Positions 2,276 to 31,507 of a DNA stretch of 64,000 bases are shown here, in pieces. Position numbers and translations under genes: made by a program. How positions within the stretch are numbered: the stretch's first letter is position 1; each line of letters starts with the position of its first letter. The stretch comes from Marinobacter sp. es.042. GTDB lineage: Bacteria > Pseudomonadota > Gammaproteobacteria > Pseudomonadales > Oleiphilaceae. The notes under the pieces were generated by a model, which worked only from the letters and a program-made list of their open reading frames with translations, searched no databases and had not been told where the DNA came from. The DNA lies in the NCBI RefSeq assembly GCF_900188315.1, contig NZ_LT897781.1:1984001-2048000 (forward strand), written 5' to 3'.

Positions 2276-3475
2276 ATGGCCCCCTCCAAGCAGCACCCAT
2301 GGCTTCCGCTACTCATATTCCTGGGCGCGGCCTTTACCTTCAGTGTGACAATGATCGGTACCACCATGCCGACGCCGCTCTACCCCATCTACCAGGACAG
2401 GTTCGGCTTTTCCGATCTGATGATCACCATCATCTTTGCCGCCTATGCCTTTGGTGTGATCGCCGCACTGGTCATGACCGGGCGCTGGTCTGATCAGATA
2501 GGCCGCCGGCCAATGCTGTTCGCGGGCCTGGCTTGTTCCATCATCAGCGACCTGGTGTTCTGGCAGGCCAATGGGCTGGGAATGATACTCACCGGCCGGG
2601 TGCTGTCCGGGCTGTCTGCGGGGATCTTTACCGGCACGGCCACCGTGGCCGTCCTGGAGCTGGCACCACCTCACTGGCGGGAAAAGGCAACCTTCTTTGC
2701 CACGGCGGCGAACATGGGCGGGCTTGGCCTTGGGCCCATGCTTGCCGGTGCCCTCTCCGAGTATCTGCCCTGGCCACTGCACCTGACCTTTCTGGTGCAC
2801 TCAGCCATGGCGCTGTTGGCGGTATGCTGCATCTGGGCAGCGCCGGAGACCGTCTCGAAACCCGCTCGCCCAAAACTGACTATCCAGCGCCTGAGCGTGC
2901 CACCGGAAGTTCGCGGCGTGTTCATTCCCGCCGCCATTGCCGGATTTGCCGGCTTCGCCATGTGCGGCTTCTTCACCTCCATCGCCCCGGCGATGATGGG
3001 TAAGGTACTGGGCTATGACAACCGGTTGCTGATCGGTGTTGTGGCCGGCAGCATTTTCATCGCCTCAACCATTGGCCAGTTCCTGCAAGGCGCCCTGCCG
3101 CTGCGGCTGCGCCTTCCCCTGGGCTGCGTGTCTCTGATGCTCGGGGTGATTCCGATAGCACTGGGCATCTATTCCCAATCCCTCGCCCTGTTCGTAACCG
3201 GGGCCGTGATTGCCGGCATGGGCCAGGGTATTTCGTTCCGGGCAGGCATGGGCGCCATCGCCTCGGTCAGCCCGACTGCGGAGAAGGCCGCCGTAACGTC
3301 CGCCTTCTTTGTTGTGGCCTATATCGCGATCTCGGTGCCGGTGATCGGCCTGGGCTTAATGGCAACCGTGACCACCCTGACGACGACCGGGATCAGTTTC
3401 GCTGCTGTTATGGGGTCACTGGCGGCACTGGCGTTGGGACTGTTGATTCGACGGGAACGGGTAGAGGTGCGATAA
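2276..3475 (+). CDS. MFS transporter
   Basis: A 399-residue major facilitator protein with about 12 hydrophobic segments. The MFS loop 2-3 signature is visible as GRWSDQIGRRP near residue 70, and the family motif in TM4 as LSGLSAGIFTGTA. It is probably an inner-membrane drug or metabolite exporter, but the substrate is unknown. It is divergent from the nucleotidyltransferase-like gene with only 47 bp between starts. Its stop codon at 3473-3475 abuts a DUF1272 remnant, so the cassette-array material begins right behind this gene. Confidence 0.9.
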   Translation: MAPSKQHPWLPLLIFLGAAFTFSVTMIGTTMPTPLYPIYQDRFGFSDLMITIIFAAYAFGVIAALVMTGRWSDQIGRRPMLFAGLACSIISDLVFWQANGLGMILTGRVLSGLSAGIFTGTATVAVLELAPPHWREKATFFATAANMGGLGLGPMLAGALSEYLPWPLHLTFLVHSAMALLAVCCIWAAPETVSKPARPKLTIQRLSVPPEVRGVFIPAAIAGFAGFAMCGFFTSIAPAMMGKVLGYDNRLLIGVVAGSIFIASTIGQFLQGALPLRLRLPLGCVSLMLGVIPIALGIYSQSLALFVTGAVIAGMGQGISFRAGMGAIASVSPTAEKAAVTSAFFVVAYIAISVPVIGLGLMATVTTLTTTGISFAAVMGSLAALALGLLIRRERVEVR

Positions 3476-3477
3476 GG

Positions 3478-3550
3478 CCGGATATTTACCAAGCAGTAAC
3501 GCAGGACGAATAGGACGGGGCGAAAAATTACCACCACAGTTGGGGCACTC
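3478..3550 (-). pseudogene. Truncated DUF1272 gene remnant
   Basis: Read on the minus strand these 73 bases encode CPNCGGNFSPRPIRPA followed by LLLGKYPA, the C-terminal end of a DUF1272 protein. They align to 10120-10192 inside the intact DUF1272 cassette at roughly 85 percent identity by eye. The 5' part is lost at about 3551. This is best explained as the leftover of a former cassette at the array's left edge, though a decayed chromosomal DUF1272 gene cannot be excluded. Confidence 0.75.
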
Positions 3551-7424: not shown

Positions 7425-9255
7425 GAGGCTGTAGAAAAACCCGATTCCGAGCCGTTCCCAACGCCTGATTCCTGTAATTTTTATCGCGGCCATCAACTGG
7501 CCGATTCTCGTGACTTCGATGTTCAGCCATCCGCTTCGGCCTTTTGGGGCTCCTGGCGTCGGCATTGCTGGTTTCCAGCAGGCACTTTTCCGGGACTTGC
7601 GCCCTCGGCATTACGCCGCCATCCGCCCGTAATTCGCCAGCTTCTCAATATTGTGCACCAGGCAGTATAGCTGCCACTGGCCCTGCACCTTCTTCTTGCC
7701 CCGCAAACTGAAGCGGTTAAGACCCTTGTTCGTGCCGATGTTGCCGAACACTGGTTCTACCACCGACATACGGTGGCTGTAGATCTCTTTACCCTGCGGG
7801 CTATCCACCCGGTGTTTCATCCAGTCGGTGTAGTTGGGCAGGCGTTTGTGCTCGATAGTGAACGACACTTGTCGGCCCTTGCCTTTCCGATGATTAGCGG
7901 CGTTCGGATTCTGCATGCACTGGTGCTTCTTCGGGCAGTGACGGCATTGCAGTAAACGGCCCTGGAAATAGGCTCGGCTTTGGCCGTTCTGGTCTGCCCG
8001 GGTACCGTGGTACTTGAGGCTTTCGCCCGCCGGGCAAATGCAGGTCAGGTTCACAGGATCGAACTGGAATTCACTGGCCGGGATGATCTCCTTCCAGTCC
8101 GTGACCGGCTGGTTCTGATGGCGTTTGCCGTATTTGTCTTTCTGGTTCTGGAACCTCGGGTCGCGACTGCGGAATTTGTTGTCGGGCACGTAGCCGTTGA
8201 TCTGCCGTTCGTGCAGGTACTTCATATTGGCTTCGTTGGCGAAGCCGGTATCGGCGGTAACGGTGGTGCCTTGCTGGTAGATACTGTCAGCGATACCCAG
8301 CTTCCTGAAGCGAGCTTCCACGCTCTCCAGTACCGGTTGCAGGGTGTGGTGTTCCTGGCCTTCGCCAAAGGCCTGGGCATCGATGATGACCTGGTGTTTT
8401 CTGTCCACCGTGGCCCCGCCGTTATAGCCCTGGATTGTGCCCTTACTGGTGGTCATCTTGGCACTTTCGTTATCGGTGAGGTTGCTCTTCACTTCCTTGT
8501 TCCGCTTCCCCCGGCCCATCCTTGGGCGGTTCGTCTTTAGGAAGCGGTCGACTTTCTTTGCCGCTTCATCCAGAGACAGGATGGTTTTCGCTCGTCGGAT
8601 GTCACGATCCAGTTCGGCTTCGGTCTCTGCCTCGTCCCGCTCGTAATGGGCTTTGAGGTGATGGCTAACCAGCCGTCGCAACTTGGCACGTTTCTCTTCC
8701 AGCTCTTTGAAGGTGCCAGACCATTCCTTGGCCGCGTTCGAGGGCATCTTGCAGCCGTCGATGGCGAAGAGTTCGTTACCCAGCAGGCCCTGGTCGTGGC
8801 ACACCAGCAGCACCTGCTCGAACAGCTCTTCGATTTCATCCGAGTGACTGCTGACGAACTTGGCCAGGGTGGTGAAATGCGGAACCGTATCGCAGGAAAG
8901 GGCCTTGAAGATGATGTTGGTCTTGCAGCACCACTGCATCTCGCGGCTGGAGGTGATGCCCTTGGAGTAGGCGAACAGGATGATCTTGAGCAGGATGGCC
9001 GGATCGTAGGCCAGCCGGCCAGTGTCTTCATTGCGGTATTTGGGATGGAAAACTGACAGGTCCAGCTTGTGTTCGATCAGGTAGTGCACCGCGTGTTCAA
9101 AGGTGCCGGGTTGAAGCTGTTCCTGGTAGTTGATCACGACCATGGCATCCTGGTCGTAGTTGTAATGCTTGAAGCGGGGCATGCCGACGACTCCTTGTCC
9201 GTTTGCCTGATCCTACCAAACCGGAGCGGGGATTTCGGGGTTTTTCTACAGCCTC
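7425..9255 (-). mobile_element. IS1182-family insertion sequence, apparently intact
   Basis: An 1831-bp element bounded by perfect 18-bp terminal inverted repeats beginning GAGGCTGTAGAAAAACCC (7425-7442 and 9238-9255). It holds one full-length transposase gene. AAC flanks it on both sides (7422-7424 and 9256-9258), and the right flank continues as the inside of an attC, so the insertion is exactly in the conserved AAC core of that attC. The AAC repeat is a possible target duplication but could be chance, being part of every attC. Confidence 0.9.
7611..9182 (-). CDS. IS1182-family transposase
   Basis: 523 residues. The N-terminal domain begins MPRFKHYNYDQDAMVVINYQ, the middle has LFAIDGCKMPSNAAKEWSG and TVTADTGFANEANMKYL (DDE-type catalytic positions), and the C-terminus has SHRMSVVEPVFGNI, the signature around the catalytic glutamate. 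A cysteine-rich segment (CICPAGE ... CRHCPKKHQCM) is typical of this family. No frameshift is visible, so it should be active. Confidence 0.93.
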   Translation of the reverse strand: MPRFKHYNYDQDAMVVINYQEQLQPGTFEHAVHYLIEHKLDLSVFHPKYRNEDTGRLAYDPAILLKIILFAYSKGITSSREMQWCCKTNIIFKALSCDTVPHFTTLAKFVSSHSDEIEELFEQVLLVCHDQGLLGNELFAIDGCKMPSNAAKEWSGTFKELEEKRAKLRRLVSHHLKAHYERDEAETEAELDRDIRRAKTILSLDEAAKKVDRFLKTNRPRMGRGKRNKEVKSNLTDNESAKMTTSKGTIQGYNGGATVDRKHQVIIDAQAFGEGQEHHTLQPVLESVEARFRKLGIADSIYQQGTTVTADTGFANEANMKYLHERQINGYVPDNKFRSRDPRFQNQKDKYGKRHQNQPVTDWKEIIPASEFQFDPVNLTCICPAGESLKYHGTRADQNGQSRAYFQGRLLQCRHCPKKHQCMQNPNAANHRKGKGRQVSFTIEHKRLPNYTDWMKHRVDSPQGKEIYSHRMSVVEPVFGNIGTNKGLNRFSLRGKKKVQGQWQLYCLVHNIEKLANYGRMAA

Positions 9256-10076: not shown

Positions 10077-10319
10077 ATTGGCACTACAGCCACCGACTTT
10101 TACCACTCGTTGCGTTGAAGCCGGATATTTGCCGAGTAGTGATGCTGGACGAATGGGACGAGGCGAGAAATTACCACCACAGTTGGGGCACTGATTAGCC
10201 AGAACACCAGAAGCACATGATTGGCAGAACGTGCATTCAAATGTGCAGATGACAGCCTCACTAGAGTCTGGCGGCAAGTCCTTGTCACAGCACTCGCAAT
10301 TGGGTCTCAATTCGAGCAT
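10071..10319 (-). CDS. DUF1272 zinc-ribbon protein (cassette)
   Basis: 82 residues: MLELRPNCECCDKDLPPDSS, then ICTFECTFCQSCASG and CPNCGGNFSPRPIRPA. Eight or more cysteines in CxxC pairs indicate two zinc sites, the DUF1272 pattern. The C-terminal tail is variable and its stop falls in the attC. A truncated relative remains at 3478-3550 beyond the left end of the array. Function unknown. Confidence 0.88.
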   Translation of the reverse strand: MLELRPNCECCDKDLPPDSSEAVICTFECTFCQSCASGVLANQCPNCGGNFSPRPIRPASLLGKYPASTQRVVKVGGCSANS

Positions 10320-12366: not shown

Positions 12367-12427
12367 GCATAACGCGGAGCGAAGCGGCGGCCCGTCAGGG
12401 ACGTCCGCCTTACGCGGCTTGTTATCA
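12367..12427 (-). repeat. attC site of GFA cassette copy 1
   Basis: A short 61-bp site with cores GCATAAC and GTTATCA. The same site, as read, is at 20033-20093. Confidence 0.88.
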
Positions 12428-12432
12428 CTGCC

Positions 12433-12831
12433 TCAGTCGTACTCTGCATGCTGAGGCAGATCATCTGTAATCTCGAACCAAGGAGCCTTACTCCCCACGA
12501 ATACATGGCGCCCTGCTTTTACCTCTGGGTCGGTATCAAGTGTTCCGAGTGGGAAACCATAGATCTCGGGGGCTGCATCAAACTTGGTATAGAGGCTGGA
12601 GCCACAGTTTGAGCAGAAGCCTTTGTGCTCACCCGGAGAAGATTCGTAAAACTTCAGCAGCTCCTGACCTTTGACGGTTTGCCAATCCGAGGATTGCACC
12701 TTAGCGCGGGTTCTGAAAGCCGAGGCATGAAGCTTCCGGCACATTGAACAGTGACAGTTCAGAACATCGGTCAGCGGACCGTTGATTTCGTATTGAATAC
12801 CCCCGCAGAGACAACTACCTGTTTGCTTCAT
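12433..12831 (-). CDS. GFA family zinc protein, cassette copy 1
   Basis: 132 residues: MKQTGSCLCGGIQYEINGPL, NCHCSMCRKLHASAF and GFCSNCGSSLYTKFD give the GFA zinc cysteines. The encoded protein is identical to that at 20099-20497 and the surrounding cassette is also identical as far as can be read. GFA proteins are common cassette genes; the substrate is unknown. Confidence 0.92.
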   Translation of the reverse strand: MKQTGSCLCGGIQYEINGPLTDVLNCHCSMCRKLHASAFRTRAKVQSSDWQTVKGQELLKFYESSPGEHKGFCSNCGSSLYTKFDAAPEIYGFPLGTLDTDPEVKAGRHVFVGSKAPWFEITDDLPQHAEYD

Positions 12832-12848: not shown

Positions 12849-12953
12849 TGATAACGCTTTTGTTCAGCGGCGACCTTTTTGTAGCGAAGCGGAGAAAAGG
12901 GCGTCCGGTGGAGGGCCTTCAGGCCCGGAACAAACTGCAACAACTGGTTAGAG
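12849..12953 (-). repeat. attC site of the internal-repeat protein cassette
   Basis: 105-bp site with cores TGATAAC and GTTAGAG, of the TTCAGCGGCG...GCGAAGCGGAGAAAA subtype. Confidence 0.87.
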
Positions 12954-12963
12954 ACTTGTACAG

Positions 12964-13290
12964 TCAAGGATCGAATCGGCCGCTAACCAGTGGTACTCGA
13001 ACGCAGGCAACTCTTTTGCTTGATCGAGTCTGAGCGGCGTCTGCCTCTTTGCGGCTTTGATGCAGCCCCTGGCTCAACGTATAGGTATCCGCATACTCAA
13101 GGACATTAACAAAAATGCTCTCAACTGGATCAAGCTGGCCATCACGAAATTCAACACGCAAGCAGGATATGCGATCGGTTCTCTGCTTCGCGGCTACATC
13201 TGCTTCTGCGCGAGTAGCATGGTAATGGCTTATTGTGTATCCGCCTGCATGTTTGTAAATGTTCAGGTAAAAGTACTTTGGTCCAGTCAT
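12964..13290 (-). CDS. Small protein made of two tandem homologous halves (cassette)
   Basis: 108 residues. Residues 6-55 (YFYLNIYKHAGGYTISHYHA ... ISCLRVEFRDGQLDP) and 59-108 (IFVNVLEYADTYTLSQGLHQ ... VACVRVPLVSGRFDP) align along their full length with the same order of strands, a SR-EAD-A motif and a C-x-RV motif. This is an internal duplication of a ~50-residue unit. Soluble, no signal peptide. Function unknown; the fold is probably alpha-beta and pseudo-symmetric. Confidence 0.75.
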   Translation of the reverse strand: MTGPKYFYLNIYKHAGGYTISHYHATRAEADVAAKQRTDRISCLRVEFRDGQLDPVESIFVNVLEYADTYTLSQGLHQSRKEADAAQTRSSKRVACVRVPLVSGRFDP

Positions 13291-14715: not shown

Positions 14716-14817
14716 CACTAACGCCGAAGCACAGCGGCGACCTTGGAGTGGCGACGAAGGAGCCACGTAAAGGGCGTCCGGCGGCCACAGGCCGCGAACT
14801 GCTGCGCCTTGTTAAAG
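14716..14817 (-). repeat. attC site (102-bp subtype) of family B copy 1
   Basis: Cores CACTAAC and GTTAAAG with the GCCGAAGCACAGCGGCGACC body. Confidence 0.88.
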
Positions 14818-15237
14818 GTTATTGAGGACAGCTCTCGACCTATGAGCCTGTAAAAATTGAAATACACCGAACCCAACCAATAAAGCGACCGGCAAGTTCG
14901 AGCTGTCCATATCTGTGTGTAAAAAGCTGGCAACCGCCATGCAAAATGCTGCGCCTAGAATGTACTCGTGAGGCCCATAGCTGTAGTTGAACCTCAATGA
15001 CTTTCCAAAAAGCTTTGAGCCAAAATCGACGGGAATCTTCCACTCTTCGGCTTGGTTGATAGCGAACCGGTTTACTTTGGCACGCAAAAATGACCAATAG
15101 ACGATTTCCTCACCCGGTAATGCAATAACTCGAAAAGCCCTGCCTGTTCCTGCTGTGACTTGATCTATACGCAGGCCAGTGACCTCCGAGAGATCGCCAA
15201 TTCTCATTGTTCCGTCCAAGAATTGCTTCCGTGCCAT
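14812..15237 (-). CDS. Membrane protein, family B copy 1 (cassette)
   Basis: 141 residues: MARKQFLDGTMRIGDLSEVT, then FRVIALPGEEIVYWSFLRAK, then two hydrophobic segments near the C-terminus (about 93-130). Homologous to the product at 25794-26222, which differs mainly in the membrane part. The stop lies in the attC. A soluble cytoplasmic N-terminus followed by a membrane hairpin is inferred. Family not recognised. Confidence 0.72.
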   Translation of the reverse strand: MARKQFLDGTMRIGDLSEVTGLRIDQVTAGTGRAFRVIALPGEEIVYWSFLRAKVNRFAINQAEEWKIPVDFGSKLFGKSLRFNYSYGPHEYILGAAFCMAVASFLHTDMDSSNLPVALLVGFGVFQFLQAHRSRAVLNNL

Positions 15238-15250
15238 AGTTCCTGTCTAC

Positions 15251-15352
15251 CTTTAACGCCGAAGCACAGCGGCGACCTTGGAGTGGCGACGAAGGAGCCA
15301 CGGAAAGGGCGTCCGGCGGCCATCGGCCGCGAACTGCTGCGCCTTGTTATGA
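15251..15352 (-). repeat. attC site (102-bp subtype)
   Basis: Cores CTTTAAC and GTTATGA. Near-identical to the sites at 11926 and 14716, though the genes they carry are unrelated. Confidence 0.88.
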
Positions 15353-20032: not shown

Positions 20033-20093
20033 ATATAACGCGGAGCGAAGCGGCGGCCCGTCAGGGACGTCCGCCTTACGCGGCTTGTTATCA
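20033..20093 (-). repeat. attC site of GFA cassette copy 2
   Basis: 61-bp site identical, as read, to 12367-12427 from the shared ATAACGCGG onward. Confidence 0.88.
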
Positions 20094-20098
20094 CTGCC

Positions 20099-20497
20099 TC
20101 AGTCGTACTCTGCATGCTGAGGCAGATCATCTGTAATCTCGAACCAAGGAGCCTTACTCCCCACGAATACATGGCGCCCTGCTTTTACCTCTGGGTCGGT
20201 ATCAAGTGTTCCGAGTGGGAAACCATAGATCTCGGGGGCTGCATCAAACTTGGTATAGAGGCTGGAGCCACAGTTTGAGCAGAAGCCTTTGTGCTCACCC
20301 GGAGAAGATTCGTAAAACTTCAGCAGCTCCTGACCTTTGACGGTTTGCCAATCCGAGGATTGCACCTTAGCGCGGGTTCTGAAAGCCGAGGCATGAAGCT
20401 TCCGGCACATTGAACAGTGACAGTTCAGAACATCGGTCAGCGGACCGTTGATTTCGTATTGAATACCCCCGCAGAGACAACTACCTGTTTGCTTCAT
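20099..20497 (-). CDS. GFA family zinc protein, cassette copy 2
   Basis: Encodes the same 132-residue protein as 12433-12831 with no difference in the translation, and the flanks from the attC to the leader (TGCACCTCCTTGTGTGATAAC) also match. The copies are 7666 bp apart with unrelated cassettes between, so this is a re-inserted or recombined copy and not a simple tandem duplication. Confidence 0.92.
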   Translation of the reverse strand: MKQTGSCLCGGIQYEINGPLTDVLNCHCSMCRKLHASAFRTRAKVQSSDWQTVKGQELLKFYESSPGEHKGFCSNCGSSLYTKFDAAPEIYGFPLGTLDTDPEVKAGRHVFVGSKAPWFEITDDLPQHAEYD

Positions 20498-27909: not shown

Positions 27910-27917
27910 ACGATGAC

Positions 27918-28229
27918 CTAACGAAATATGTTCACGTGCCGGAGCGAAGCGCAGGTCGCGTGCAACGTGTTGTTAAACGGAACGTCCAGAAAGACTGTCA
28001 TATTGCTCTTAGTCACAGGCCACTCCATACCCTGAAGACACCCCTGGGAAGCTCTCAGGCCAATCGTCAGCGCGGGCAACCAAGACGAGAAGGCACTCAA
28101 CAAAGGCGACCACGATCGAGGATTGATCGGCTTTCCCTCAAGAACCAGAGCAGACGCATCAAGCCGCGACTTATGCGTCTGCTCTGGTTCTTGAGGGTAG
28201 CAAGGAGAGCGCTCAACGGCGATCCGCAT
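27918..28229 (-). CDS. Open frame in SOS-box cassette copy 1, coding status uncertain
   Basis: 103 codons from ATG 28229 (MRIAVERSPCYPQEPEQTHK), ending in the attC core. It begins about 41 bp after the LexA-type box, so it could be the SOS-induced product. Against this, no Shine-Dalgarno sequence precedes the ATG, the frame runs through a perfect 24-bp hairpin, and no domain is recognised. A non-coding RNA is an alternative. Confidence 0.35.
   Translation of the reverse strand: MRIAVERSPCYPQEPEQTHKSRLDASALVLEGKPINPRSWSPLLSAFSSWLPALTIGLRASQGCLQGMEWPVTKSNMTVFLDVPFNNTLHATCASLRHVNIFR
28135..28197. other. Perfect 24-bp hairpin in SOS-box cassette copy 1
   Basis: Arms 28135-28158 and 28174-28197 are exact reverse complements (CCCTCAAGAACC... 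and ...GGTTCTTGAGGG) around a 15-base loop. No T-run follows on either strand, so it is not a typical intrinsic terminator. Confidence 0.9.
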
Positions 28230-28269
28230 TATTTGTTTTCTTGCACTCGATTCCAGATTGAAAATAATG

Positions 28270-28285
28270 CTGTTTATCTATACAG
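28270..28285. promoter_or_regulatory. LexA-type SOS box, copy 1
   Basis: CTGTTTATCTATACAG: a perfect CTGT-N8-ACAG match to the gammaproteobacterial LexA consensus with an AT-rich centre. On the minus strand it directly follows promoter-like hexamers TTGCCG and TAAATA at 18-base spacing, so LexA binding would block leftward transcription into this cassette and those beyond. Confidence 0.75.
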
Positions 28286-28342
28286 TTATTTACTCTAACC
28301 CACGGTGATTCGGCAAGAAAACTTTGCACCTCACCCACCGCT

Positions 28343-28654
28343 TTAACGAAATATGTTCACGTGCCGGAGCGAAGCGCAGGTCGCGTGCAACGTGTTGTTA
28401 AACGGAACGTCCAGAAAGACTGTCATATTGCTCTTAGTCACAGGCCACTCCATACCCTGAAGACACCCCTGGGAAGCTCTCAGGCCAATCGTCAGCGCGG
28501 GCAACCAAGACGAGAAGGCACTCAACAAAGGCGACCACGATCGAGGATTGATCGGCTTTCCCTCAAGAACCAGAGCAGACGCATCAAGCCGCGACTTATG
28601 CGTCTGCTCTGGTTCTTGAGGGTAGCAAGGAGAGCGCTCAACGGCGATCCGCAT
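28343..28654 (-). CDS. Open frame in SOS-box cassette copy 2, coding status uncertain
   Basis: The same 103-residue frame as in copies 1 and 3 without any substitution. The lack of change is equally explained by recent duplication. Confidence 0.35.
   Translation of the reverse strand: MRIAVERSPCYPQEPEQTHKSRLDASALVLEGKPINPRSWSPLLSAFSSWLPALTIGLRASQGCLQGMEWPVTKSNMTVFLDVPFNNTLHATCASLRHVNIFR
28560..28622. other. Perfect 24-bp hairpin in SOS-box cassette copy 2
   Basis: Same arms and loop as at 28135-28197. Confidence 0.9.
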
Positions 28655-28694
28655 TATTTGTTTTCTTGCACTCGATTCCAGATTGAAAATAATG

Positions 28695-28710
28695 CTGTTT
28701 ATCTATACAG
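28695..28710. promoter_or_regulatory. LexA-type SOS box, copy 2
   Basis: Same CTGT-N8-ACAG sequence as copy 1. Confidence 0.75.
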
Positions 28711-28765
28711 TTATTTACTCTAACCTACGGTGATTCGGCAAGAAAACTTTGCACCTCACCCACCG

Positions 28766-28866
28766 CTTTAACGCGAAGCTTAGCGGCGCCCTTGTAATGG
28801 AGGCGAAGCCGCCATGTAAAGGGCGTCCGGCGGCCAACGGCCGCGTACTACAGCGCCTTGTTAAAT
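28766..28866 (-). repeat. attC site
   Basis: 101-bp site with cores CTTTAAC and GTTAAAT, related to the 102-bp subtype (GAAGCTTAGCGGCGCCCTTG). Confidence 0.87.
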
Positions 28867-29202
28867 AACACCAATGTATGCAGCGGCGATGAGGAGGCTG
28901 ACAACTGCTGAAAGCGAAATTAGAACCACACCGAACCCTAAAACGCCTCTATGCCAGCCTCTCAGGCTCATCCAATAAGTCTCAAATTCAAAGAACTGCT
29001 TGCCAGTCACCAGATGTAAAACTCCTACCAAGGCTAAAACCCCAGGCAAAGCAACCACAGTCATCTGGCCAACCGCCCTCCAACTGGTCGAGGCAGGGTT
29101 TAGCCCCTCATGAAGGACGAAATGAAAAACCAGACCGTATCCGATGACACCCGCAACTATCTGTATGACGCCTTTTTTCCTAATTGACGACTTCAAAGAC
29201 AT
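28861..29202 (-). CDS. Polytopic membrane protein (cassette)
   Basis: 113 residues from ATG 29202 (MSLKSSIRKKGVIQIVAGVI) with three membrane helices: about 10-30, 48-66 and 86-110 (GVLGFGVVLISLSAVVSLLI). Its stop is in the attC. It lies between the second and third copies of the SOS-box cassette. Family not recognised. Confidence 0.68.
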   Translation of the reverse strand: MSLKSSIRKKGVIQIVAGVIGYGLVFHFVLHEGLNPASTSWRAVGQMTVVALPGVLALVGVLHLVTGKQFFEFETYWMSLRGWHRGVLGFGVVLISLSAVVSLLIAAAYIGVI

Positions 29203-29234
29203 TATCAAATTCCGCTGTCACGATTACTTAGAGT

Positions 29235-29345
29235 TCAGGATGCAAAGAACCAACAAAATAGGACCTGCGGTATTGAAATGAAGGCGAAGCCGAAATTTTA
29301 AAACCGACGCCGCGACCAACATTTTTTTACGTGTGGCCAGCATAG
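29235..29345 (-). repeat. Degenerate attC-like region
   Basis: Contains ACCTGCGGTATTGAAATGAAG and GGCGAAGCCG...GACGCCGCGACC, which resemble the arms of the sites at 10765 and 26713. The outer cores AAC and GTT are not intact, so recombination here should be lost. Confidence 0.5.
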
Positions 29346-29351
29346 TGTGCA

Positions 29352-29600
29352 TCAGTACACACTGGCAGTTTCATCAACGATGAATTGAGCTTTATTTTTG
29401 ACACACCAAGCTTCTAGCTCCTGCTTTAGCTGAGGCCACAGATCCTTTGCCCAAGTTGGAGCTTTCCGCTCCCACACTGATTGCGTGGGAAGATAAGCAG
29501 AGAGCACCCCCATCGGGAGCTCAAGAACAAATGCACCACCGGGCCCGGTAACGACCAATTCTTCTTTCCATCTTGGCTCAAATTTGAAAATACTCATCAT
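29352..29600 (-). CDS. Small conserved-looking soluble protein (cassette)
   Basis: 82 residues (81 from the second ATG): MSIFKFEPRWKEELVVTGPG, GAFVLELPMGVLSAYLPTQS, then WAKDLWPQLKQELEAWCVKN. Compact alpha-beta composition, no signal peptide. I have the impression of an existing uncharacterised family but cannot name it. Confidence 0.68.
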   Translation of the reverse strand: MMSIFKFEPRWKEELVVTGPGGAFVLELPMGVLSAYLPTQSVWERKAPTWAKDLWPQLKQELEAWCVKNKAQFIVDETASVY

Positions 29601-29609
29601 TATTTACAT

Positions 29610-29921
29610 TTAACGAAATATGTTCACGTGCCGGAGCGAAGCGCAGGTCGCGTGCAACGTGTTGTTAAACGGAACGTCCAGAAAGACTGTCATATTGCTC
29701 TTAGTCACAGGCCACTCCATACCCTGAAGACACCCCTGGGAAGCTCTCAGGCCAATCGTCAGCGCGGGCAACCAAGACGAGAAGGCACTCAACAAAGGCG
29801 ACCACGATCGAGGATTGATCGGCTTTCCCTCAAGAACCAGAGCAGACGCATCAAGCCGCGACTTATGCGTCTGCTCTGGTTCTTGAGGGTAGCAAGGAGA
29901 GCGCTCAACGGCGATCCGCAT
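29610..29921 (-). CDS. Open frame in SOS-box cassette copy 3, coding status uncertain
   Basis: The same 103-residue frame as copies 1 and 2. Confidence 0.35.
   Translation of the reverse strand: MRIAVERSPCYPQEPEQTHKSRLDASALVLEGKPINPRSWSPLLSAFSSWLPALTIGLRASQGCLQGMEWPVTKSNMTVFLDVPFNNTLHATCASLRHVNIFR
29827..29889. other. Perfect 24-bp hairpin in SOS-box cassette copy 3
   Basis: Same arms and loop as at 28135-28197. Confidence 0.9.
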
Positions 29922-29961
29922 TATTTGTTTTCTTGCACTCGATTCCAGATTGAAAATAATG

Positions 29962-29977
29962 CTGTTTATCTATACAG
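29962..29977. promoter_or_regulatory. LexA-type SOS box, copy 3
   Basis: Same CTGT-N8-ACAG sequence as copies 1 and 2. Confidence 0.75.
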
Positions 29978-30045
29978 TTATTTACTCTAACCTACGGTGA
30001 TTCGGCAAGAAAACTTTGCACCTCACCCACCGCTTTAACAGCTAA

Positions 30046-30313
30046 TTATACGAACGCGTTCGCATATCACCCGTTCGCAAAACTCCACTCAAACACGCTC
30101 AAGAAAAAACAAACTTCTTCTGTAAAAACAATATCTTGAGCACTAATCACCACGGCTACCGCCGGAGTTATACGCCCTATCCTGAGCCACTCCTGCTCCT
30201 GCCATGGGCGTATAACTCCGCCATTCCATTTCTAACTTCTCAACCCTATCAGATAGTTACCGTCATTTCTCACGTGATTTTTGGAGTTTTGCGAACGCGT
30301 TCGTATAACTCCA
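30046..30313. repeat. Nested palindromes at the right end of the cassette array
   Basis: Three related inverted-repeat structures. The outer arms are TTATACGAACGCGTTCGCA (30046-30064, followed after a 15-bp insertion by AAACTCCA) and its complement at 30282-30308. The inner arms are GGAGTTATACGCCC (30164-30177) and GGGCGTATAACTCC (30206-30219). The right outer arm, 30282-30313, is itself a near-palindrome centred on CGAACGCGTTCG. All share GGAGTTATACG-type ends. No gene is present from 30040 to 30481, a position where attI and intI would be expected. Confidence 0.75.
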
Positions 30314-30481
30314 ATATCTGGCGCCCCCCTGCACTACCCTCGCACCCACATACCTGAGATACTCATCTACACCCCACCCAACAGGATGTACCGGTCGTCC
30401 CCATGCACCGGGCGGTGGACAGGGTTGCTCCCCACTCGATAAGCGGAGCACAGGGAAACACACTGACAGGAGGTCACTCCC

Positions 30482-31507
30482 ATGAAACGCATTGCTGTCT
30501 GCTTTGATGGCACCTGGAACCGCCCGGAGGAAATCCTGGGTGAGGACTTTCCTACCAACGTTCTGAAATTTGCCCGTGCCATCCGGCCTACCGACGGTAA
30601 CGGGGTGGAACAGGTGGTGTTCTATGACTGGGGCATTGGCTCCTACCACGATTCACTTCGAGCCGGCGCCACCGGGTACGGGCTGGAGAAGAACGTGATG
30701 GACGGCTACCGGTTTCTGGTGCACAACTACGAGCCCGGCGACGAGATTTTCCTGTTCGGGTTCAGCCGCGGTGCCTACACGGCCCGCAGCCTCTGCGGGA
30801 TGATCAATAATTGCAGCATTCTGCGAAAAGAACACGGCAGCCGGATCGAGGAGGCCTTCAAGCTCTACAAAACCAAGAAACACAAGGCCAACGGCGACCA
30901 CTCCATGGCCTGGAAGGCGAAGTATTCGCTGGAGCAGCGCACGCCCATCCGGTTTGTCGGGGTGTGGGATACCGTGGGCGCCCTGGGCCTGCCGTTTACT
31001 TTTTTCGGCCTGATCAAGGATCGGGACCTGTTCTACGATTGCAAGATCGGCAGCAACATTCGCGTCGCCCGCCACGCCCTCTCGCTGGACGAGCATCGGG
31101 AGGATTTCGAACCCACGCTCTGGGAGCCCCGAGACGGCACCGATCTGGCTCAGGTGTGGTTTGCCGGGGTGCACTCGGACGTCGGCGGAGGTTACGAGCC
31201 AGACAAGCAGGGTCGCACACTGGCGGATATCCCCCTGCTGTGGTTGAAAGAAGAAGCGCAAAAACACGCCCTGGTGTTCAACGATTCCCTGCCCGCCGAA
31301 ACCCACGCCGACGCCGATCAGCACAATGAATACAAGGGCAAATACAAGCTGCTGGGCAAGCTGGTGCGCGAGATACCCCCGCCCGAGACCAACCGCACAT
31401 GGGTGCATCCCAGCGTGAAAGAGCGCTATGCCGGCGGCTACCGCAGCGAACCGATCGAGCAGTACAACAAGCTCCACGGCCAATGGCCACCGCTCTGGCC
31501 GAGATAA
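30482..31507 (+). CDS. DUF2235 (Tle1-like) alpha/beta hydrolase
   Basis: 341 residues. MKRIAVCFDGTWNRPEEILG is the typical DUF2235 start, the nucleophile elbow is GFSRG with Ser95, and HSDVGGGY holds the catalytic Asp and His region. The family includes type VI secretion phospholipases (Tle1), but free-standing copies of unknown substrate are common. A strong ribosome site AGGAGGT precedes the ATG. It is the first chromosomal gene right of the cassette array. No secretion signal. Confidence 0.88.
   Translation: MKRIAVCFDGTWNRPEEILGEDFPTNVLKFARAIRPTDGNGVEQVVFYDWGIGSYHDSLRAGATGYGLEKNVMDGYRFLVHNYEPGDEIFLFGFSRGAYTARSLCGMINNCSILRKEHGSRIEEAFKLYKTKKHKANGDHSMAWKAKYSLEQRTPIRFVGVWDTVGALGLPFTFFGLIKDRDLFYDCKIGSNIRVARHALSLDEHREDFEPTLWEPRDGTDLAQVWFAGVHSDVGGGYEPDKQGRTLADIPLLWLKEEAQKHALVFNDSLPAETHADADQHNEYKGKYKLLGKLVREIPPPETNRTWVHPSVKERYAGGYRSEPIEQYNKLHGQWPPLWPR

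Follow-up and report, generated by a model that had tools for sequence, protein, structure and literature searches.

Oral Treponema carry ORF-less gene cassettes with promoter activity, which were proposed to drive the expression of other cassettes (PMC6557892), and a small RNA encoded in Xanthomonas integrons, sRNA-Xcc1, is present in several species (PMC8876359, PMC12444791). The promoters of integron integrases are controlled by LexA (PMC3108266), and the V. cholerae cassette promoter Pc was reported to lie outside the SOS regulon (PMC3948777). The gene qnrB, linked to ISCR1, is also repressed by LexA (PMC8876359). In the accessible portions of the open-access literature, including PMC5963079, PMC6557892, PMC8876359, PMC12444791, PMC3108266 and PMC3948777, no SOS-controlled cassette or cassette RNA was found.

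The stretch of Marinobacter sp. es.042 DNA analysed here (64,000 nucleotides, hereafter the window, whose positions are counted from its first base) contains a cassette array in which a unit of 425 bp occurs three times. We propose that this unit is an ORF-less integron cassette encoding a LexA-controlled structured noncoding RNA, a reading drawn from sequence comparison to which we give a probability of about 0.55. Like the Treponema cassettes, the unit has an attC site and no conserved frame, but those cassettes are described, in the available part of the source, without a LexA operator or a conserved structured RNA (PMC6557892). With sRNA-Xcc1 it would share the presence of a noncoding RNA on an integron cassette in several species. 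According to the same partial sources, sRNA-Xcc1 is controlled by HrpG/HrpX, lies in the opposite orientation and occurs with symE, whereas the unit has a LexA-type box, follows the cassette orientation and has no partner gene that we could see, the two being compared by description only (PMC8876359, PMC12444791). The operator is of the same kind as in the LexA-controlled integrase promoters, and the intI gene of this genome also has one; as far as that source describes it, the integrase operator is part of the fixed platform, with intI under its control, while that of the unit lies on a mobile cassette (PMC3108266). The unit also resembles qnrB in being a mobile element with LexA-type control of its own, the promoter in the unit being a predicted one, but qnrB is a protein gene which the accessible text does not describe as an attC cassette, and the unit is an ORF-less attC cassette (PMC8876359).

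A 425-bp cassette present three times with a one-base difference was already claimed by the sequence-only reading, and repeat comparison agreed with it: the copies share one register (27916, 28341 and 29608), and a single base sets copy 1 apart from the identical copies 2 and 3. When the cassette limits are placed by the G^TT recombination rule, six bases off that register, the copies span 27922-28346 (copy 1), 28347-28771 (copy 2, in tandem with copy 1) and 29614-30038 (copy 3), with their sense on the minus strand. Copy 3 is the first cassette and directly adjoins an attI-like region without an integrase gene (30039-30312, minus strand), which forms the right end of the array and shares 91% identity over 280 bp with the sequence upstream of the genome's own intI. 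No integrase over the cut-off was listed for the window's array. The own intI has a LexA-type box, CTGTATATAAAAACAG, at genome position 1627177. A fourth and identical copy of the unit is located at genome positions 1624948-1625372, near the integrase gene (C1:1627251-1628186) and 387 kb away from the copies in the window, in a genome of 3.94 Mb. These identical copies in two arrays suggest that the unit moves, presumably by the action of IntI. As in integron cassettes, an attC lies at the 3' end of the unit and its G^TT boundaries stand beside attI or another attC. The attC of copy 2 has about 62 bp (28344-28405), and those of copies 1 and 3 lie at about 27919-27980 and about 29611-29672, all on the minus strand. 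These sites were judged from sequence and from the alignment of relatives; our custom attC finder is crude, the first version giving 33 hits against 32 on the opposite-strand control. The second version overlooks some sites and calls false ones beyond the array, so that array sizes are approximate and the frequency of first place is given without a probability.

A DNA search found the unit in 12 of 97 genomes, own genome included, all of them within the genus and some with remnants only. A covariance model matched 17 of the 124 Marinobacter genomes, again counting the own genome. This added a divergent type II, which differs in cassette start and attC and has the box CTGTATATTCAACCAG. An exact-pattern scan of a genome contig collection returned 13 stretches, all titled Marinobacter, M. 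maritimus CK47 and M. shengliensis SL013A34A2 being among them. Searches of sampled genomes from the order and the class, run under more stringent filters at which weak matches may be lost, yielded nothing outside the genus: the hits were 3 among 390 genomes of the order and 1 among 369 of the class, every one from the own genus and the own genome included. The unit was also absent from the plasmids and phages searched and, by exact pattern, from viral contigs. The unit represents a family of integron cassettes seen, in these searches, only in Marinobacter. Shortened remnants exist (L018 in G002 and L049, the second copy of G060, which is without a box), and the analysed set leaves out the fragments G034:C10 and G034:C4 and the G002 remnant.

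Read on its sense strand, the unit consists of the cassette start, an inverted-repeat arm 1, 26-28 bases, the LexA-type box, 25 bases, arm 2, a block of 37 bases, a stem, a tail and the attC. The sequence-only reading had reported a perfect LexA-type SOS box in each copy, and this was confirmed: CTGT-N8-ACAG is found at 28270-28285, 28695-28710 and 29962-29977 (no strand assigned; pattern scan and matrix) and nowhere else in the window. Shuffled windows had a mean of 0.77 such patterns and three were reached by 4 of 100 shuffles, a count that is weak alone because all three boxes are copies of one sequence. The matrix score and the conservation of the box across genomes are stronger support. 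The related pattern CTGTAT-N6-ACAG occurs in 14 places of the genome, compared with a single place for its backward version, used as control (one palindromic place was listed twice). Four of the 14 are the units themselves, and the others are at lexA, recA, dinB, imuA, yebG and intI, two at a gene which we take to be recN, one that overlaps recX at its start and one (L066) that resembles a chance occurrence. A LexA matrix was built from eight of these SOS boxes of the own genome (lexA, yebG, recA, dinB, imuA, intI and the two at recN), scoring with a Marinobacter matrix having been proposed in the sequence-only reading. The unit box reached 20.5 bits, within the range of the recA, lexA and intI boxes, with 18.2-29.5 bits for the training boxes in leave-one-out and 10.9 for the best site of the window outside the units; the matrix is not wholly independent of the unit, because the training boxes were found with a pattern derived from it.

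In the 12 type I representatives the box scored 20.5-30.2 bits, within the range of known boxes, so that the operator fits the SOS boxes of the host, as would be expected of a member of the LexA regulon; the type I box of G007 has CCAG instead of ACAG. The five type II representatives scored 12.9-21.6 bits. Four of them fall below the range of known boxes, at 12.9-13.9 bits, and have CCAG in place of ACAG; judging from these scores, LexA control may be weak or lost in such units. CTG-N10-CAG is kept in all 17 scored boxes (12 and 5, one representative per genome and type, L049 and L018 being omitted since they have no box). In 21 stretches with a total of 347,185 bases, 34 LexA sites of at least 18 bits were found, of which 19 are in units, 10 before intI, one beside attI-B (the site of a second integrase class, described below) and four at imuA-like positions, classes that were assigned from the coordinates of units and integrases. 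No cassette other than the unit had such a site in these stretches. Taken together, the box and the sharing of its operator type with intI make SOS control of the unit likely.

The box is flanked by the two arms of an inverted repeat, located by the alignment of relatives and a repeat test on the minus strand. Arm 1, with the sense sequence GTTTTCTTGC, is at 28738-28747 in copy 2 and at 28313-28322 and 30005-30014 in the other copies, and arm 2, GCAAGAAAAC, at 28660-28669 in copy 2 and at 28235-28244 and 29927-29936. Type II units have, around the box, 8-10 bp of AGATCTCAAC and its reverse complement, and thus the inverted repeat is kept in both types while the arm sequence differs. Shuffled flanks reached the arm lengths in 0-2 of 300 cases for type I (11 units) and in 0-6 of 300 for type II (five units). 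The 37-base block (28623-28659 in copy 2, minus strand) separates arm 2 from a long hairpin at 28135-28197, 28560-28622 and 29827-29889 in copies 1 to 3, on the same strand. The hairpin stem has 25 perfect base pairs and inner pairs extend it to 29; among the five inverted repeats of at least 20 bases within 200 bases in the window, only the three hairpins are perfect. Across 13 type I rows the mean pairwise difference was 0.000 in both arms, 0.054 in the block, 0.107 in the box, 0.118 and 0.114 in the arms of the stem, 0.133 and then 0.217 in the tail and 0.212 in the attC, compared with 0.308 and 0.325 in the two flanks of the box.

Covariation in the stem was evaluated in two alignments, both without the boxless L049 and L018: A1, a free alignment of nine type I sequences, and A3, with 17 matches of both types in 16 distinct rows, which was fitted to the R1 structure and is biased towards it. 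All 279 cells pair in A1, and both its 21 cells with two-sided changes and its covariation score of 0.254 surpassed all 500 shuffles and, by a wide margin, every slid version. In A3, 98.8% of 492 cells pair, 94 cells have two-sided changes and the covariation score is 0.557, each value exceeding all 500 shuffles. Pairs changed on both sides numbered 7 of 31 in A1 and 16 of 31 in A3, figures reached by 3 and 33 of 500 shuffles; further pair types were not above shuffles (471 of 500 in A1 and 500 of 500 in A3). As the rows are related, these shuffle counts are not probabilities. The covariation signal was lost in both alignments when the partners were slid. Paired cells, two-sided cells and covariation score thus have the behaviour of a structured noncoding RNA among relatives, and the pair-type counts do not. 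Counted on the sense strand, the hairpin cells include 15 G-U and no A-C, which favours an RNA of that strand, the G-U cells coming from only three pair positions. Rfam 15 gave no family at the gathering threshold: the hairpin drew six weak hits of microRNA type, a single weak U6 hit was also returned, and all scored far short of that threshold; the unit sequence has no run of T after the hairpin, and pairing of the block with the intI leader as a target was no better than in shuffles (183 of 500 as low). The main conserved feature of the unit is a predicted structured noncoding RNA region with a covarying hairpin of 25-29 bp, which the sequence-only reading had missed. Since the RNA part is both conserved and covarying, a noncoding RNA is the likeliest product under selection, and such a region goes beyond what a plain promoter cassette would need.

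We envisage that in an undamaged cell LexA would occupy the box and the unit would be silent. After DNA damage, cleavage of LexA would allow transcription, from a promoter directed along the cassette sense, of an RNA of roughly 300-370 nt with a conserved 5' segment, the 25-29-bp hairpin, whose loop is conserved, and a more variable tail with the attC at its end. This RNA probably acts on its own, in trans, because the neighbouring cassettes look unrelated from genome to genome: by eye, the ORFs downstream of the units are diverse. Pfam had no match for the four window ORFs that stand beside units. Read-through of the attC from a unit in first position would make the next cassettes damage-inducible too, which is plausible as a second effect, as the unit is often first. 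A broader possibility, to which we give clearly less than even odds, is that the unit is an SOS-controlled leader cassette that is mobile and represents a new RNA family, located beside attI and co-induced with the integrase, which would put both a structured RNA and the first cassettes under damage control. If this is true, integrons would have a portable way to alter the regulation of their arrays. A cassette that carries a LexA operator of its own together with a conserved RNA would couple array output, or a damage-induced RNA, to DNA damage, and would show selection on cassette-borne regulation in marine bacteria in which this can be tested directly.

The sequence-only reading had proposed a mobile cassette whose SOS-controlled promoter would make neighbouring cassettes damage-inducible, with the promoter-like hexamers TTGCCG-18-TAAATA pointing into the array. 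The cassette with its own attC, the LexA-type operator and the frequent first place stand, and so does the presence of the hexamers as letters in the unit. They were not listed by the consensus promoter scan of the unit region, and their -10 hexamer is not conserved among relatives. The scan lists three weak matches instead, on the strand opposite to the boxes, and promoter-like sites number four in all, against 2.8 +/- 1.9 in shuffles. Neither the alignment of relatives nor the consensus scan gave the conserved -35 and -10 hexamers reading into the array that would define a sigma-70 promoter cassette, and we consider it rather unlikely that the job of the unit is to provide an SOS promoter for the following cassettes, with the hairpin acting only as a leader at the 5' end through which the array transcript is stabilised or processed. 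The strongest conservation outside the operator and the arms, with covariation, is that of the RNA part, while the diversity of the downstream ORFs would fit a general-purpose promoter.

Array position points in the same direction as that diversity, with reservations. Among the 10 attI-A arrays that hold the unit, it is first in seven (own window, both G126 arrays, G034, G032, G040 and G132); in G046 it stands roughly second, in the own intI array roughly third, and in G039 it is internal. G007, with a broken intI beside the unit, gave no attI-A match and is outside these 10. The own-window and G132 arrays are syntenic, so the independent events are fewer than the arrays. The second integrase class has its own site, attI-B, and LexA-type boxes before intI in the four examples examined (L102, L106, L107 and L108). 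The type II unit L036 adjoins an attI-B-like region that matches, with 83% identity over 188 bp, the one next to intI in L108, L040 has an 88-bp partial match to such a region, and in L037 and L039 the likeness appears only in the alignment. However, L038 is preceded by an attC and several type I copies are not first either, and the frequent first position may also reflect recent insertion at attI.

Returning to the structured RNA, its hairpin and the arms could alternatively serve, as folded single-stranded DNA, in the excision, insertion or replication of the cassette and give the unit an unusually high mobility, with a box that times this together with the SOS-controlled integrase. Five of the 17 model-match genomes have at least two copies (four in own genome, three each in G034 and G032, two each in G126 and G060), with tandem pairs in the first three of these, and this, together with the identical copies in the intI and window arrays and the inverted arms around the box in both types, would agree with such a DNA element. 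Nevertheless, other cassettes are duplicated too, a LexA operator is unnecessary for this function and the G-U cells without A-C point to an RNA of the sense strand, although only from three positions, and we regard the explanation as improbable.

A 103-amino-acid protein was the first guess for the product of the unit, from a minus-strand frame (28343-28654) that is open in the copies of the window and had been noted in the sequence-only reading. This frame is not conserved: stops and indels break the frames across relatives, with a stop in every sense frame of 10 of the 13 type I rows, and a stop-free sense frame is left in two own rows and G126. The ATG is changed to GAG in G040, G032, G018 and G046, variable columns are distributed as 25/28/26 over the codon positions, without codon periodicity, and the Pfam search of the frame had no match, findings that led us to drop this first guess and that leave the unit without a conserved coding frame. 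No frame with a ribosome-binding-like site is common to all 13 rows. A small SOS-induced protein or type I toxin made from this or a shorter frame is thus very improbable, even if SOS toxins with structured leaders exist, such as tisB in the part of the source available (PMC7708055). Equally improbable is that the unit is a relic or a neutral passenger which has merely inherited its box and hairpin, a view to which the shortened remnants lend something but which fits poorly with islands of near-zero change beside fast-changing flanks and with compensatory changes in the stem, and the noncoding RNA reading is the one that we retain.

Some other features of these arrays were observed. The match of the attI-like region to the sequence upstream of intI stops short of the LexA box in the intI promoter, and the region has a palindrome, GAACGCGTTCGTATAACTCC, at 30281-30314, with a similar one at its other end. 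In L104 (G123), a type II unit has as its neighbour an attI-B-like region, itself carrying a LexA-type box (about 12937-13136); no integrase over the cut-off is listed on that contig, which suggests another orphan attI. The locus L039/L019 of G054 is a type II unit that lacks much of the tail and lies just upstream of a gene which we take to resemble DUF3703. Within the array of the window there is another exact duplication, 12369-12668 and 20035-20334 (100% over a 300-bp reference), and an 82-bp repeat of 85% identity links 3468-3549, left of the main array, with 10111-10192 inside it. A transposase gene (DDE_Tnp_1_6) is located at 7611-9182, within the cassette array, and L092, a stretch of G126, contains related pieces, up to 1.8 kb long, at four places. 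Just outside the array, 30482-31507 is a gene with the catalytic domain of a T6SS Tle1-like phospholipase. Finally, the cassette at 14719-15257 recurs with 100% identity over 539 bp in the intI array elsewhere in the genome (L091), at its attI end, which suggests a recent exchange between the two arrays.
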